Positions 19,775 to 25,479 of a stretch of DNA of 36,595 nt are shown here, one piece after another. How positions within the stretch are numbered: position 1 is the first letter of the stretch; each line of letters begins with the position of its first letter. The stretch spans positions 1 through 36,595 of the forward strand of contig PGYD01000010.1 in assembly GCA_002839495.1 (NCBI GenBank), written 5' to 3'. Position numbers and translations under genes: made by a program. The stretch is from Planctomycetes bacterium HGW-Planctomycetes-1 (lineage in GTDB: Bacteria; Planctomycetota; Phycisphaerae; Sedimentisphaerales; UBA12454). The notes under the pieces were generated by a model. The model was not told where the DNA came from. It saw only the letters and a list, made by a program, of their open reading frames with translations, and ran no database searches.

Positions 19775-20095
19775 ATGGTTAGTTTCGACAAATCAGTACT
19801 AAATAAATGTAAAACCGCAGTGAAAAAAGTATCGCCGGATGCTGATATTATCTTATTTGGCTCACGCGCTCGAGGCCAGGCACAAGAATATTCCGATTAC
19901 GATATTTTAATCCTTGTTGACCAACGGGCAGATTTAAAACTCAGCGAGAAGATTCTCGACCATATTTATCCAATCGAACTTGAGACTGAAGCAATGATAA
20001 GCTTCGTCGTTCAAAACAGAACTGTGTGGAACAGTCCTTTGTCCCGCGCAATGCCGTTCCATAAGAATATCGACAGGGAAGGAATCCGAGTTTGA
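19775..20095 (+). CDS. MNT-type nucleotidyltransferase (MntA-like antitoxin)
   Basis: A 106-residue minimal nucleotidyltransferase. The GSX10DXD motif is exact: Gly29-Ser30, then Asp41 and Asp43 (FGSRARG...SDYDILI). In type VII toxin-antitoxin pairs, MntA neutralises its HEPN-domain toxin by transferring AMP to a tyrosine. The HEPN partner follows directly, its TTG start overlapping this gene's TGA. The pair lies in the accessory region next to phage-gene debris. Whether the pair is a true toxin-antitoxin module depends on the partner, whose catalytic motif is not canonical. Confidence 0.85.
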   Translation: MVSFDKSVLNKCKTAVKKVSPDADIILFGSRARGQAQEYSDYDILILVDQRADLKLSEKILDHIYPIELETEAMISFVVQNRTVWNSPLSRAMPFHKNIDREGIRV

Positions 20096-20493
20096 CAAAA
20101 GAGTCAAAAGAATTAGCCAAATACAGACTCGAAAGAGCATTCCAAACTCTTGAAGAAGCAAAGTTGCTGTTCGATTCAGGTTATACAAATACTTATGTCA
20201 ACCGGTTATACTATGCCTGTTTTTACGCGGTTTCAGCATTGCTGATATCGCAGGATAAATCCACGAGCAAACACGGCCAATTAAGAGCTATGCTGCATAA
20301 GGATTATGTAAAAGCCGGATTATTATCAAAAGAGTCCGGCAGGCATTTTGACCTTTTATTTCAGAGCCGTCAAACCGGCGATTATGTCGATAATGCCGCT
20401 TTCAATCCAGAAGAGGTTAAAGACTGGCTCGAAAAAACAAGACGATTTGTCGAAGAAATACAAAAATTTCTCTCTGCAAATTTCGAAGTCTGA
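20092..20493 (+). CDS. HEPN domain protein paired with MNT
   Basis: A 133-residue helical protein of the HEPN superfamily (AYRLERAFQTLEEA-like first helix, then NRLYYACFYAVSALL). It is expected to be the partner of the upstream nucleotidyltransferase. The canonical RNase motif Rx4-6H is not visible; the corresponding position reads RQTGDYVD, with Arg followed by Asp-Tyr and no His. The Tyr could be an AMP acceptor. So it may be a non-ribonuclease HEPN. The start is a TTG overlapping the upstream stop (TTGA), supported by GGAAGGA about 8 nt before it. Confidence 0.8.
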   Translation: MTKESKELAKYRLERAFQTLEEAKLLFDSGYTNTYVNRLYYACFYAVSALLISQDKSTSKHGQLRAMLHKDYVKAGLLSKESGRHFDLLFQSRQTGDYVDNAAFNPEEVKDWLEKTRRFVEEIQKFLSANFEV

Positions 20494-20999: not shown

Positions 21000-22301
<1,302 letters not shown>

Positions 22302-22322
22302 AAGCCGTCAGAAAATGTTTTT

Positions 22323-22387: not shown

Positions 22388-22528
22388 ATGGAAAAGGAAC
22401 AATCAGAAATCAGCGAAGCAAAATCTGCCGTAGCCAACAAGGGTAAAGCAAAAAAGAAATGGCAGAAACCAAAACTTGAAGATGTTTCCGGAAAAGTAAT
22501 GGCCCAGCCTTATATCCGATTTACTTAA
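22388..22528 (+). CDS. Candidate RiPP precursor peptide
   Basis: A 46-codon frame from ATG 22388 to TAA 22526-22528. The N-terminal half is charged (MEKEQSEISEAKS) and lysine-rich (KGKAKKKW), like a leader. WQKPKLEDVSG at residues 25-35 resembles the aromatic-x-x-Pro recognition element that RRE/PqqD domains bind in other RiPP leaders. The C-terminal segment GKVMAQPYIRFT is the likely core; Tyr42 is the only tyrosine and Phe45 the only phenylalanine. It lies upstream of a PqqD-like protein, a radical SAM enzyme and a membrane prenyltransferase on the same strand. SynChlorMet-type cassettes (PqqD homologue, PqqE-like radical SAM enzymes and a short peptide) are, from memory, the nearest analogue. 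No strong Shine-Dalgarno is visible. The assignment rests on context and leader features. Confidence 0.65.
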   Translation: MEKEQSEISEAKSAVANKGKAKKKWQKPKLEDVSGKVMAQPYIRFT

Positions 22529-22542
22529 TTGGTTATTATTTG

Positions 22543-22572
22543 TTGGTGATTGTCAATCAGATTATATATAAT
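22543..22572 (+). promoter_or_regulatory. Candidate promoter between the precursor peptide and pqqD-like gene
   Basis: TTGGTG (22543-22548) and TATAAT (22567-22572) lie 18 bp apart in an AT-rich 112-nt gap. A separate promoter here would let peptide and enzymes be made at different levels. Assigned by eye only. Confidence 0.3.
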
Positions 22573-22640
22573 AATAGTATTTTGTGCGTGTACTTATGCT
22601 CTTGTACGTAGATGGCATTTGTGAAGAAAAAGAGTTTTAG

Positions 22641-22892
22641 ATGAATTTCACTAAACATACGAAAATCAGAAAAGAAAGATTCGGGGCAGTGGTGTTTGAC
22701 ACTTTGACCGAAAAGATATTTGTAACTGATGAAATCGGCGGAGAGATTTTGCGGTTAATCGAAAAGGGAAAAGACTTGACGCATATCATAAGCGTGCTAT
22801 GTGACAACTACGATGGTGACAGACAAACGATTGAAAAAGACGTTATTGAGTTTACCAACCAATTGAAGTCAAACAGCATAGTCAGAGCATAG
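22641..22892 (+). CDS. PqqD-like RiPP recognition element protein
   Basis: An 83-residue protein with the PqqD fold pattern: a three-strand start (AVVFDTLTEKIFVTDEIGGE) followed by helices (ILRLIEKG, TIEKDVIEFTNQL). Such proteins bind the leader of a precursor peptide and present it to a radical SAM enzyme. It ends 8 nt before the radical SAM gene and follows the small lysine-rich peptide gene, the typical setting. The ATG at 22641 gives a normal length; only a weak purine stretch precedes it. Codon use is AT-rich compared with eno. Confidence 0.85.
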   Translation: MNFTKHTKIRKERFGAVVFDTLTEKIFVTDEIGGEILRLIEKGKDLTHIISVLCDNYDGDRQTIEKDVIEFTNQLKSNSIVRA

Positions 22893-22900
22893 GAGTAAGC

Positions 22901-23917
22901 ATGGATATTGCAGCTGAAGATAAAAAATTGGCTCGTTTAACCAATCCCGGGCCGGACGACCAGCTTCGGGAAATTCTCAGGGGCAGCAACTTCGAAGATT
23001 ATAAGGCACCGCTCTTCATTGCCTGGCAGCTTAATTCAGCCTGCAATTTAAGGTGCCTGCATTGTTGTGAGGAGTCCGGCCACAGTATGCCCGATGAGAT
23101 GACCAAAGAAGAGGCTCTCGATTTCTGCGGGCAAATTGCAGAATCAAATATTCCTTATGTGGCTATATCAGGTGGAGAGCCGATGCTTTGCCCCTACTTT
23201 TTCGAGGTCTGCGAGTTTATTAGAAATAACAGTATAAGCCTCAAGATAGAGACCAACGGTGAGTTTATTGATGAACAGGCCGCTGACAGACTGGCAGAGC
23301 TGAAACTGCGGTCGGTACAGATAAGTCTCGATGGCGCAACACCCGAGACGCATGAGAGGTTAAGAGCAGGAGGCAATTGGGCAAAAGCAGTATCGGCTTG
23401 TAAATGTCTTATAAAAGGCGGTGTAAATACCGAAATTGTCTTCGTTCCTACGAAATTTAACTACCACGAAATAGGCGATATTATAGATATGGCCTATTCG
23501 ATGGGAGCTTACGGCGTTTACACAGGCAAAACAATGCGAATCGGACGAGCAGCGAAAAACTGGGATACTATATGTTCATCGCTTGAGGAATATGATAAGT
23601 TTTTCAATATACTAAAGGAAAAAGCCGATGCTTACGAAGGTAAGATGAAGGTTTATTATTATCCTTCAGACATTATTGAAGAGTTAAAATACCGTTTGGA
23701 CCAACCAGCAGCGAGTCTGTTAATTTTGCCAAACGGCAAGGTTAAACTCATATCTGCTTTGCCCTTTATCTGCGGTGACCTGAAGAAACAAAGTCTGAGA
23801 GAGGTCTGGCAAAATTATAGGTTGGCCTGGCGGAATCCCAAGGTAGTCGATTTCGCCGAAAAAGTAATTGCCGACCCGCAGCTTTTAGCTCAGTCAAATA
23901 ACTGGATAGAAATTTAA
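22901..23917 (+). CDS. Radical SAM enzyme with degenerate SPASM-like C-terminus
   Basis: A 338-residue radical SAM protein of the PqqE/SPASM lineage. Cys48, Cys52 and Cys55 (ACNLRCLHC) bind the [4Fe-4S] cluster used to cleave SAM, and GGEP is at 91-94. The C-terminal ~70 residues align in style with a SPASM domain (LLILPNGKVKL, LPFICGDLKKQSLREVW), but the cysteines that bind auxiliary clusters are gone; only Cys291 remains after residue 225. The enzyme may therefore lack auxiliary clusters. The partner PqqD-like protein and the peptide suggest it modifies the peptide core. GGAG lies 5 nt before the ATG. It may be translationally close to the prenyltransferase gene, 7 nt downstream. Confidence 0.88.
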   Translation: MDIAAEDKKLARLTNPGPDDQLREILRGSNFEDYKAPLFIAWQLNSACNLRCLHCCEESGHSMPDEMTKEEALDFCGQIAESNIPYVAISGGEPMLCPYFFEVCEFIRNNSISLKIETNGEFIDEQAADRLAELKLRSVQISLDGATPETHERLRAGGNWAKAVSACKCLIKGGVNTEIVFVPTKFNYHEIGDIIDMAYSMGAYGVYTGKTMRIGRAAKNWDTICSSLEEYDKFFNILKEKADAYEGKMKVYYYPSDIIEELKYRLDQPAASLLILPNGKVKLISALPFICGDLKKQSLREVWQNYRLAWRNPKVVDFAEKVIADPQLLAQSNNWIEI

Positions 23918-23924
23918 TCCTGCT

Positions 23925-24785
23925 GTGAATCTGATAGAACTAATAAGGTATCGTTTTTTTCTTTTCGCGGGACTGCTTCCGTTTCTTTTAGGTCAGGCTG
24001 TAGCGTTTAACGCCCAGAGGAAACTCAACCAGCTTCGTTTTTGGCTGGGATTTGGGGGAATATTTTTTGTTCTCGTCGCGGTGGAATTGTTCAATGAATA
24101 CTTTGATGCAAAAGAAGGCGGCGACAGAGTTTTTTCTCAGAACCAACCAGAAATTCCAGGTTGGTTTTTTAAATTGGGAATTCTGGCTCTCGGACTTGCG
24201 TTTGTCATCGGCCTTTATCTGACTTTGCAGACAGGCTGGCCGGTGCTTTTGTTTTCTTTCCTTGGATTTCTCGGTGCGTATTTTTATGCAGGTCCGCCGA
24301 TTAGATGGGCATACCGCGGATTTGGGGAAATAGTGATAGGTCTCTGCTATGGCCCATTTATGGTACTGGGCAGTTACTACATTCAACTGCAAAGAGTTGA
24401 CTTTGTGCCGTTTTTTATCTCTATAATCAGCGGTTTGAGTGTGTTTTGCCTGGCGATTCTCAACGAAATACCGGACTACTATCAGGATATGCTCGTTGGG
24501 AAACGAAATCTGGTAGTGAAACTCGGAAAACAAAGAACGATTCTGCTACTAAAGCTGGGTTTAGCAGGTGTATTTGCCCTTTTGGCTTTAGGCGTTGTTC
24601 TAAAAATAATACCTGCAACAGCAATAGTTGCTGTAGTAACACTGCCACGGATTTTTAAAAGCATAAAAATCGCCGAGAAAAATTGTGATAATCCCAAGGC
24701 ATTTCTTTTTGCGATAAACACAATTGTAGTCGTGCACATTGTAATTGTTCTGTCTTTGGGAATAAGTTTCTTGGGAAGTAAATAA
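23925..24785 (+). CDS. UbiA/MenA-type membrane prenyltransferase
   Basis: A 286-residue integral membrane protein with about eight hydrophobic segments. The first Asp-rich motif is NEYFDAKEGGD (Asn57, Asp61, Asp67) and the second is NEIPDYYQD (Asn180, Asp184, Asp188); both hold Mg-diphosphate in the UbiA superfamily. YAGPPIRWAYRGFGEIVIGL resembles MenA, which prenylates 1,4-dihydroxy-2-naphthoate. It starts with GTG 7 nt after the radical SAM gene, so the two are probably one unit. UbiA enzymes are not the usual RiPP tailoring prenyltransferases, so a peptide-derived aromatic acceptor would be novel. The alternative is a menaquinone-pathway gene that only happens to be here; no other men genes are nearby. 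Confidence 0.88.
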   Translation: MNLIELIRYRFFLFAGLLPFLLGQAVAFNAQRKLNQLRFWLGFGGIFFVLVAVELFNEYFDAKEGGDRVFSQNQPEIPGWFFKLGILALGLAFVIGLYLTLQTGWPVLLFSFLGFLGAYFYAGPPIRWAYRGFGEIVIGLCYGPFMVLGSYYIQLQRVDFVPFFISIISGLSVFCLAILNEIPDYYQDMLVGKRNLVVKLGKQRTILLLKLGLAGVFALLALGVVLKIIPATAIVAVVTLPRIFKSIKIAEKNCDNPKAFLFAINTIVVVHIVIVLSLGISFLGSK

Positions 24786-24870: not shown

Positions 24871-25083
<213 letters not shown>

Positions 25084-25102
25084 AAATTACACTAATTATA
25101 TC

Positions 25103-25188: not shown

Positions 25189-25479
25189 ATGGGAACAGAA
25201 GAGATAATAGGCAAACAAAGAGAGCAGATACTTGCTCTTGCGGCAAAGCGCGGCGCTTTTAATGTCAGAATTTTCGGCTCAGTCGCAAGGGGCGAGGCAA
25301 AACCAGACAGCGATGTGGATTTTCTGGTTGATTTGGAAGAGGGACGCAGTCTCTTTGACCTTGGCGGATTATTATACGACCTGCAAAATCTTCTGCAACG
25401 CAAAGTCGATGTCGTTACAGAAGCAGGGCTTCATTGGTATATAAAAGACAAAATCATCAAAGAGGCCAAATCTTTATGA
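25189..25479 (+). CDS. MNT-type nucleotidyltransferase (MntA-like), partner truncated
   Basis: A 96-residue minimal nucleotidyltransferase with an exact GSX10DXD motif: Gly30-Ser31, Asp42, Asp44 (FGSVARGEAKPDSDVDFLVD). The middle (FDLGGLLYDLQNLLQRKVDV) is typical of MntA/DUF-type antitoxins. In an intact pair it would AMPylate the HepT toxin encoded next door. Here the following gene starts in overlap (ATGA) but is cut short after 45 residues, leaving this antitoxin without a functional toxin. It lies at the right end of the accessory region, just before mraY on the other strand. It is a different subtype from the MNT at 19775. Confidence 0.88.
   Translation: MGTEEIIGKQREQILALAAKRGAFNVRIFGSVARGEAKPDSDVDFLVDLEEGRSLFDLGGLLYDLQNLLQRKVDVVTEAGLHWYIKDKIIKEAKSL

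Follow-up and report, generated by a model that had tools for sequence, protein, structure and literature searches.

A putatively mobile peptide-maturation cassette with a UbiA-type prenyltransferase in Planctomycetota and its possible role in making a membrane redox lipid

Introduction

What might a bacterium make from a ribosomal peptide whose gene lies next to those for a leader-binding protein, a radical S-adenosylmethionine (SAM) enzyme and a membrane prenyltransferase? The question is raised by a locus in contig PGYD01000010.1 of Planctomycetes bacterium HGW-Planctomycetes-1 (assembly GCA_002839495.1), analyzed here as a stretch of 36,595 nucleotides (the window). An initial annotation of this DNA described, between positions 22388 and 24785, a compact cassette for a ribosomally synthesized and post-translationally modified peptide (RiPP), and proposed that its product would be a membrane-bound redox cofactor or lipid signal. 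The first part of this interpretation stood: with a precursor, a RiPP recognition element (RRE) and a modifying enzyme, a RiPP-type cassette is near certain, and strongly supported because the conserved peptide with its W-x-x-P-x-L motif, the PqqD-like protein, the radical SAM enzyme and the UbiA-type prenyltransferase occur in one order in 11 genomes. The second part, a membrane redox lipid, is only made likelier by neighboring genes. We give about an even chance (roughly 50%) to a mobile RiPP-type cassette that would use the peptide's invariant C-terminus to build a prenylated, membrane-bound small molecule, most likely a redox lipid of the quinone type. No printed account of the cassette was found in the openly licensed literature.

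A short peptide with an invariant C-terminus

The four genes lie on the same strand at the positions first assigned to them, with intergenic gaps of 112 nt (peptide to PqqD), 8 nt (PqqD to radical SAM) and, as already noted in the initial annotation, 7 nt before the UbiA gene. The three larger products score above their Pfam cut-offs. For the peptide, Pfam gave nothing and NCBIfam only a weak match to a lasso peptide model (13.8 bits vs a cut-off of 27). The peptide gene (22388..22528, forward strand) encodes 46 residues, MEKEQ...KKKWQKPKLEDVSGKVMAQPYIRFT. The cassette was identified in 11 carriers, all Planctomycetota, with the order peptide-PqqD-radical SAM-UbiA kept in each. Besides the window genome (G000, family f1), these are G549, G602, G626, G647, G756, G785 and G794 (all f102), G804 (f4), G461 (f112, same class as the window genome) and G222 (f57, same phylum only). 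The initial annotation had also raised the possibility that no conserved short peptide would precede related sets of genes; one does so in 11 of 11 genomes, that of G804 being cut at a contig end.

Comparison of the last 17 codons in the 11 genomes revealed that the final ten residues, VMAQPYIRFT (V37 to T46, positions 22496..22525), are identical in every protein. Nine of the ten codons vary, all synonymously, the tenth being that of the methionine. Because the residues are invariant while these codons change, the peptide must be the product of a real, constrained gene: its core is under purifying selection. This pattern, and the unchanged position of the gene at the head of the cassette in 11 genomes, ruled out a chance open reading frame (ORF). 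The invariance extends to a D-V-S stretch upstream of the core and stands alongside considerable divergence of the partner proteins, with identity to the window's proteins falling to 59% for the radical SAM enzyme and 40% for the PqqD-like protein. The N-terminal half of the peptide is weakly conserved. The peptide also has a motif resembling a leader recognition site, W25-x-x-P28-x-L30 (22460..22477). The W-x-x-P element pointed out in the initial annotation is kept in all 10 fully readable copies, and the leucine in nine, G626 having phenylalanine. PMC12710340 describes W/Y/LxxP/L/I as an RRE recognition sequence. An invariant precursor end paired with a fixed product structure is also, in PMC3023750, the argument that led to mycofactocin. 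By the same analogy, the peptide has the pattern expected of the precursor of one fixed-structure product, unlike that of toxins or antibiotics that diversify.

The predicted leader-binding protein and the radical SAM enzyme

The second gene (22641..22892, forward strand) encodes an 83-residue PqqD-type peptide chaperone of the stand-alone RRE family (PF05402, E 4.6e-13, 49.7 bits vs a cut-off of 23.4). It falls below the NCBIfam equivalog cut-offs of both PqqD (35.5 vs 46 bits) and MftB (15.8 vs 33 bits), as it does for every other NCBIfam family among the matches listed. In the 10 full peptides, presence of the RRE domain coincides with a matching W-x-x-P-x-[LF], and binding of the two partners is predicted on these grounds.

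The third gene (22901..23917, forward strand) encodes a radical SAM enzyme of 338 residues (PF04055, E 1.9e-24). Its cluster motif, C48-x3-C52-x2-C55 (23042..23065), is invariant in a 14-row alignment, as is C56. Scores were obtained for 25 of 71 NCBIfam families, and the enzyme is under the cut-off of every one of the 25; among the matches listed, it reached 133.7 bits with MftC (cut-off 265), 100.5 with ScmE (cut-off 400), 78 with WgkB and 68.5 with PqqE (cut-off 381). Among solved sequences, it is nearest to SkfB (E 4.9e-23) and PqqE (E 8.2e-12). The SPASM set of auxiliary-cluster cysteines was not found in the 14-row alignment, where C291 is the sole invariant cysteine beyond residue 200, and the Pfam SPASM model scores slightly under its cut-off (21.1 vs 21.5 bits).

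These features place the cassette close to known systems without making it a member of any. It resembles the mycofactocin system in its short precursor with an invariant C-terminus, its RRE chaperone, its related radical SAM enzyme (MftC being the best among the matches listed) and its redox setting. It differs in lying under the MftC (265) and MftB (33) cut-offs, in a peptide that ends in PYIRFT where MftA ends in Val-Tyr, in the missing SPASM set and in the presence of UbiA. PqqA, the precursor of pyrroloquinoline quinone (PQQ), has a W-x-K-P-like stretch and a Glu-x-x-x-Tyr pair. The conserved part of the cassette peptide likewise starts with a W-x-K-P-like element, and a PqqD-family protein and a PqqE-related enzyme accompany it; unlike the PQQ system, the cassette has no Glu-x-x-x-Tyr in the core and no auxiliary-cluster cysteine set, stays under the PqqD (46) and PqqE (381) cut-offs, and includes UbiA. 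The SynChlorMet system (ScmE/ScmF) shares a distantly related radical SAM enzyme, whereas the cassette enzyme is far under the ScmE cut-off, is encoded by one gene per copy outside G804, and is joined by UbiA.

PQQ and mycofactocin are peptide-derived redox cofactors, not polyprenyl lipids, and the cassette could in principle yield a soluble cofactor of their kind, with UbiA serving only as its anchor or having another substrate. The logic would be the same, namely an invariant short precursor, a PqqD/RRE chaperone and a radical SAM enzyme related to PqqE and MftC (PMC3023750). We consider this quite unlikely: of the 12 cassette copies, 11 have UbiA adjoining a radical SAM gene, and its Asp-rich motifs are intact in 10 of 10 compared; the radical SAM enzyme is devoid of the SPASM cysteine set; and inspection by eye, with no model search made, recognized no gene like PqqB/C/F or MftD/E beside the cassette.

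A second alternative concerns the chemistry. The radical SAM enzyme might do no more than crosslink Tyr-Ile-Arg as a cyclophane, the product being a modified prenylated peptide of unassigned role. The distant similarity to WgkB is consistent with this, and Y-I-R would fit an aromatic-x-x motif known for radical SAM enzymes that form cyclophanes. SPASM clusters are present in such enzymes, whereas only one C-terminal cysteine is invariant in the cassette enzymes, and we regard such an outcome as very unlikely.

At its C-terminus, the radical SAM enzyme has a tail (W-x-x-P-x-V...KVIA-x-P, 23828..23878) that copies the spacing of the peptide. When a profile of the peptide is run against the 14 enzymes, this tail scores highest in 13 of them, the best match in the G222 enzyme falling elsewhere. 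Tail scores range from 8.5 to -2.4 bits, and 4 of 14 exceed the best score (5.8 bits) of 4200 shuffles; the 14 enzymes are related and so amount to one observation. The tail may imitate the leader and the start of the core, as a docking mimic or as a competitor for PqqD.

A UbiA-type prenyltransferase in a peptide-maturation cassette

The fourth gene (23925..24785, forward strand, GTG start) encodes a UbiA/MenA-like integral membrane prenyltransferase of 286 residues (PF01040, E 4.4e-24). Both Asp-rich motifs (NEYFD and DYYxD) are retained in all 10 cassette copies compared. They correspond to the NxxxD and DxxxD motifs of MenA, MqnP, UbiA and UBIAD1, which belong to the same integral membrane family; UBIAD1 is also the one solved relative found (E 0.001). 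The best relatives among the NCBIfam matches listed are 1,4-dihydroxy-2-naphthoate (DHNA) polyprenyltransferases, with the enzyme scoring 56 bits against TIGR00751 (menA, cut-off 102.15) and remaining under the other NCBIfam models in those matches. Unlike MenA and MqnP, the cassette UbiA lies under the menA cut-off and in a peptide-maturation cassette, and most carriers gave no match to the DHNA-making genes.

Ribosomal peptides or their derivatives, which the cassette would also prenylate, are known substrates of the cyanobactin F-family, ComQ and PalQ. These enzymes have an ABBA-barrel or a trans-isoprenyl-diphosphate-synthase-like fold according to a review of peptide prenylation (PMC13290415), in which the word UbiA does not occur; the cassette enzyme, in contrast, is an integral membrane UbiA. 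Even without a quinone role, the cassette would represent a RiPP-type family whose prenyltransferase is an integral membrane UbiA.

Known menaquinone pathways in the carriers

Menaquinone genes were sought in the carrier genomes, which are incomplete, a point that bears on all absence counts of Men and Mqn genes. No MenD match over the cut-off of 244 bits was obtained in six carriers, four of which gave weak matches of 49-65 bits. MqnC was over its cut-off in 0 of 9 carriers and in 4 of 5 non-carriers picked for having PF02621; a partial MqnC match in G222 is closer to CofH (191.8 vs 160.7 bits) and was not counted. MqnA/D (PF02621) was found in 1 of 11 carriers, with separate searches giving 0/6, 0/9 for the carriers in the order and 1/6 for those in the class. 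Across the class, PF02621 occurs in 273 of 397 genomes vs the 1 of 6 carriers (P 0.013, shared ancestry ignored).

These counts bear on the most conventional explanation, in which UbiA would serve ordinary menaquinone synthesis as the genome's MenA or MqnP, next to an unrelated RiPP locus made up of the other three genes. The DHNA polyprenyltransferases among its best relatives favor that assignment. The initial annotation had considered that the gene might be the genome's only menA, with men genes elsewhere. Neither expectation was borne out: none of the six carriers searched for MenD and none of the nine searched for MqnC reached the cut-off, 10 of 11 gave no MqnA/D match, and another UbiA of the window genome passes the menA cut-off that the cassette enzyme misses. 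Moreover, UbiA is part of a co-inherited unit. Ordinary menaquinone synthesis is accordingly disfavored, and we hold it to be highly improbable.

Routes to ubiquinone, rhodoquinone, plastoquinone and menaquinone are treated in a 2026 survey of quinones in bacteria (PMC13386864), the accessible part of which names no peptide-based one.

Respiratory genes next to the cassette

Genes for a Na+-translocating NADH:quinone oxidoreductase (NQR) lie upstream of the cassette in 4 of 11 genomes (G647, G756, G602 and G626), which represent three genera, all of family f102. The linked genes comprise nqrA-F in G647 (locus L008) and nqrC-F on the contig of L009 (G756), with L055 (G602) and L056 (G626) also linked. 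In G647, the peptide gene directly follows nqrF; in the other three, one conserved small ORF intervenes (L055 5873-6334, L009 3277-3738, L056 10089-10523), for which no Pfam match was found in the two copies scanned (L055 and L056). The linked subunits match NQR models best, and nqrD is over its cut-off in the three loci scanned (L008, L009 and L056). NQR-type genes occur in 6 of the 8 genomes checked, all of them carriers (G000, G222, G549, G602, G626, G647, G756 and G794); in G794 and G549 they lie away from the cassette (L062 and L094), G549 having an NqrF-like subunit (276.7 bits vs a cut-off of 295).

Other neighbors point in the same direction. A polyprenyl diphosphate synthase gene (PF00348, E 4.9e-63) begins 5 nt past UbiA in G626; beyond it lie genes for a response regulator and a histidine kinase, and then an NrfD/Fe-S/molybdopterin set. 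The cassette is downstream of a V-type ATPase operon in G785, with one gene resembling the phosphotransferase system between, and near multiheme cytochromes in G549. A membrane redox lipid is thereby made more likely, given nqr genes in four of the 11 genomes, the polyprenyl diphosphate synthase and NrfD complex in one and the V-type ATPase in another. From these surroundings and the pathway counts, we infer a quinone role standing in for menaquinone.

The neighborhood also holds the main argument for a different product, a prenylated RiPP with no electron-carrying function that retains the whole core and serves as a lipopeptide signal or acts on membranes. Downstream of the cassette, L009, L055 and L056 encode a histidine kinase whose membrane domain is PilS-like, and ComX, a prenylated peptide, is a signal. 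The prenylated RiPPs known so far are natural products or signals (PMC13290415). Yet the same PilS-like kinase follows an nqr locus that has no cassette (L062), the four-gene cassette contains no exporter or immunity gene, and the core is undiversified across families and two classes. A non-redox lipopeptide thus appears unlikely.

Several observations weigh against a quinone-type lipid. Some concern the electron-accepting partner. Where scanned, NQR subunits A, B, C, E and F are under their equivalog cut-offs, some narrowly, and the first NQR-type subunit of G549 is nearer RnfC than NqrA. The linkage to nqr, confined to one family, may reflect a single ancestral event. The window genome, which is 93.8% complete, yielded Rnf alone and no NQR, so an electron-carrier role would there be without its partner; neither complex was found in G222 (83% complete). 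Cytochrome bd subunit I was matched in only 2 of 6 carriers and was dropped as a marker of quinone use. Others concern the pathway counts. A second MenA-like UbiA is present in some carriers, including the window genome (G000:C95, L059 5090-6016), with scores against TIGR00751 of 125.8 (L059) and 127.8 bits (L016), both over the cut-off, and 100.5 bits (L013), slightly under it; menaquinone head-group genes were not found in these carriers. One carrier, G461, has an MqnA/D-family match (E 1.1e-39). The MenD check covered G000, G222, G549, G647, G756 and G794, the MqnC check these six and G461, G602 and G626, and both addressed markers of menaquinone and not of ubiquinone or plastoquinone. Finally, absence of MqnA/D is the rule near the window: PF02621 is found in 18 of 161 genomes of the order and missing from 143, as from all 13 listed f1 genomes. 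In the order, none of the 9 carriers has PF02621, but such a lack of overlap falls short of significance (P 0.33), and mutual exclusion at that level was dropped. A Phycisphaerae survey (PMC11266412) describes one group of Sedimentisphaerales, to which the window genome might belong, as strictly fermentative and missing the respiratory chain.

A possible route to the product

No peptidase, ring hydroxylase or methyltransferase gene was seen within the four-gene cassette, which also counts against the quinone-type lipid; therefore the route would need help from genes elsewhere, unless the aromatic fragment is released by the radical reaction. Under the favored interpretation, PqqD would bind the WxxPxLxDVS leader and present the peptide to the radical SAM enzyme. 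The latter would attack the core, most plausibly at Tyr42, through a crosslink to a neighbor or breakage of the side chain. Tyr42 is the most economical candidate because the core has one tyrosine and one phenylalanine, and phenolic rings are what UbiA enzymes prenylate. A peptidase encoded elsewhere in the genome would trim the peptide, UbiA would add a polyprenyl chain in the membrane and, in respiring relatives, the product would accept electrons from Na+-NQR instead of menaquinone.

To our knowledge, no respiratory lipid quinone in print is made from a ribosomal peptide, all known ones having small-molecule head groups. That the 2.4-kb cassette provides a further such route, with a peptide-derived head group and a UbiA-attached tail replacing menaquinone in Planctomycetota with Na+-NQR, is a tentative proposal to which we give somewhat less than even odds. 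If true, the ribosome could encode a membrane electron carrier, and respiration would be explained in NQR-bearing Planctomycetota in which the menaquinone genes tested were not found.

Distribution and arrival of the cassette

Cassette carriers account for 6 of 397 genomes in the class draw and 9 of 161 in the order. A draw of 392 genomes from the phylum produced four radical SAM matches at E <=1e-30, those in G000 and G222 belonging to cassettes; the other two have no peptide, PqqD or UbiA match in their short loci. A scan of GTDB contigs recovered the cassette in L008, L009, L010 and L011 (in G647, G756, G549 and G794, respectively), along with a fifth, distant match, L012, that is without the other cassette genes. 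G602 and G756 belong to one genus and their cassette loci are nearly identical. Beyond Planctomycetota, the search covered the GTDB contig scan, viral contigs and plasmids. No match to the peptide was obtained in plasmids. Viral contigs contained 19 distant radical SAM matches (20-29% identity).

The 12 copies owe their number to G804, which has two (L090 1513-3567 and L091 5872-7940), each with two tandem radical SAM genes ~65-71% identical to the window enzyme. The peptide of L090 is truncated by the contig end. L091 is the copy without an adjoining UbiA; only 440 bases of contig precede its first radical SAM gene, and no PqqD or peptide match was found there. In G222, the UbiA gene is split across two frames.

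Close relatives of the window genome provide an indication of mobility. The cassette is absent from 12 of 13 listed f1 genomes, and six of these 12 are genus mates (0/6). In the window it is flanked by a 175-nt direct repeat of an enolase 3' end, both copies on the forward strand. Copy 1 (22129..22303) is the end of the intact eno gene (21015-22301), and copy 2 (24911..25085), 93% identical to it, is a displaced gene end. The two differ by 12 synonymous changes and one non-synonymous change, where 23% synonymous would be expected at random (P 1.8e-7). Given these mainly synonymous differences, the copies most likely drew apart while both were functional, each in its own genome, and are not a gene and its decaying duplicate. 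No integrase was seen between the repeats. The arrangement suggests horizontal arrival of the cassette, with the enolase-end repeat pointing to recombination; the simplest account suggested by the repeat is that the cassette entered on DNA carrying its own eno end and recombined there. The inner order of the radical SAM tree is too weak for naming a donor.

Folding of the 112-nt gap between the peptide and PqqD genes and its counterparts gave z values of 1.18, 0.48, -4.20 and -0.93 in four loci, with no common signal for an RNA element. The gap in L009 (3937-4065) folds strongly (z -4.2), and those of the three other loci do not. Outside the enolase repeats, the window contains toxin-antitoxin-like genes on both sides, a nucleotidyltransferase-HEPN pair upstream of eno (19775-20493) and a lone nucleotidyltransferase downstream of the cassette (25189-25479).

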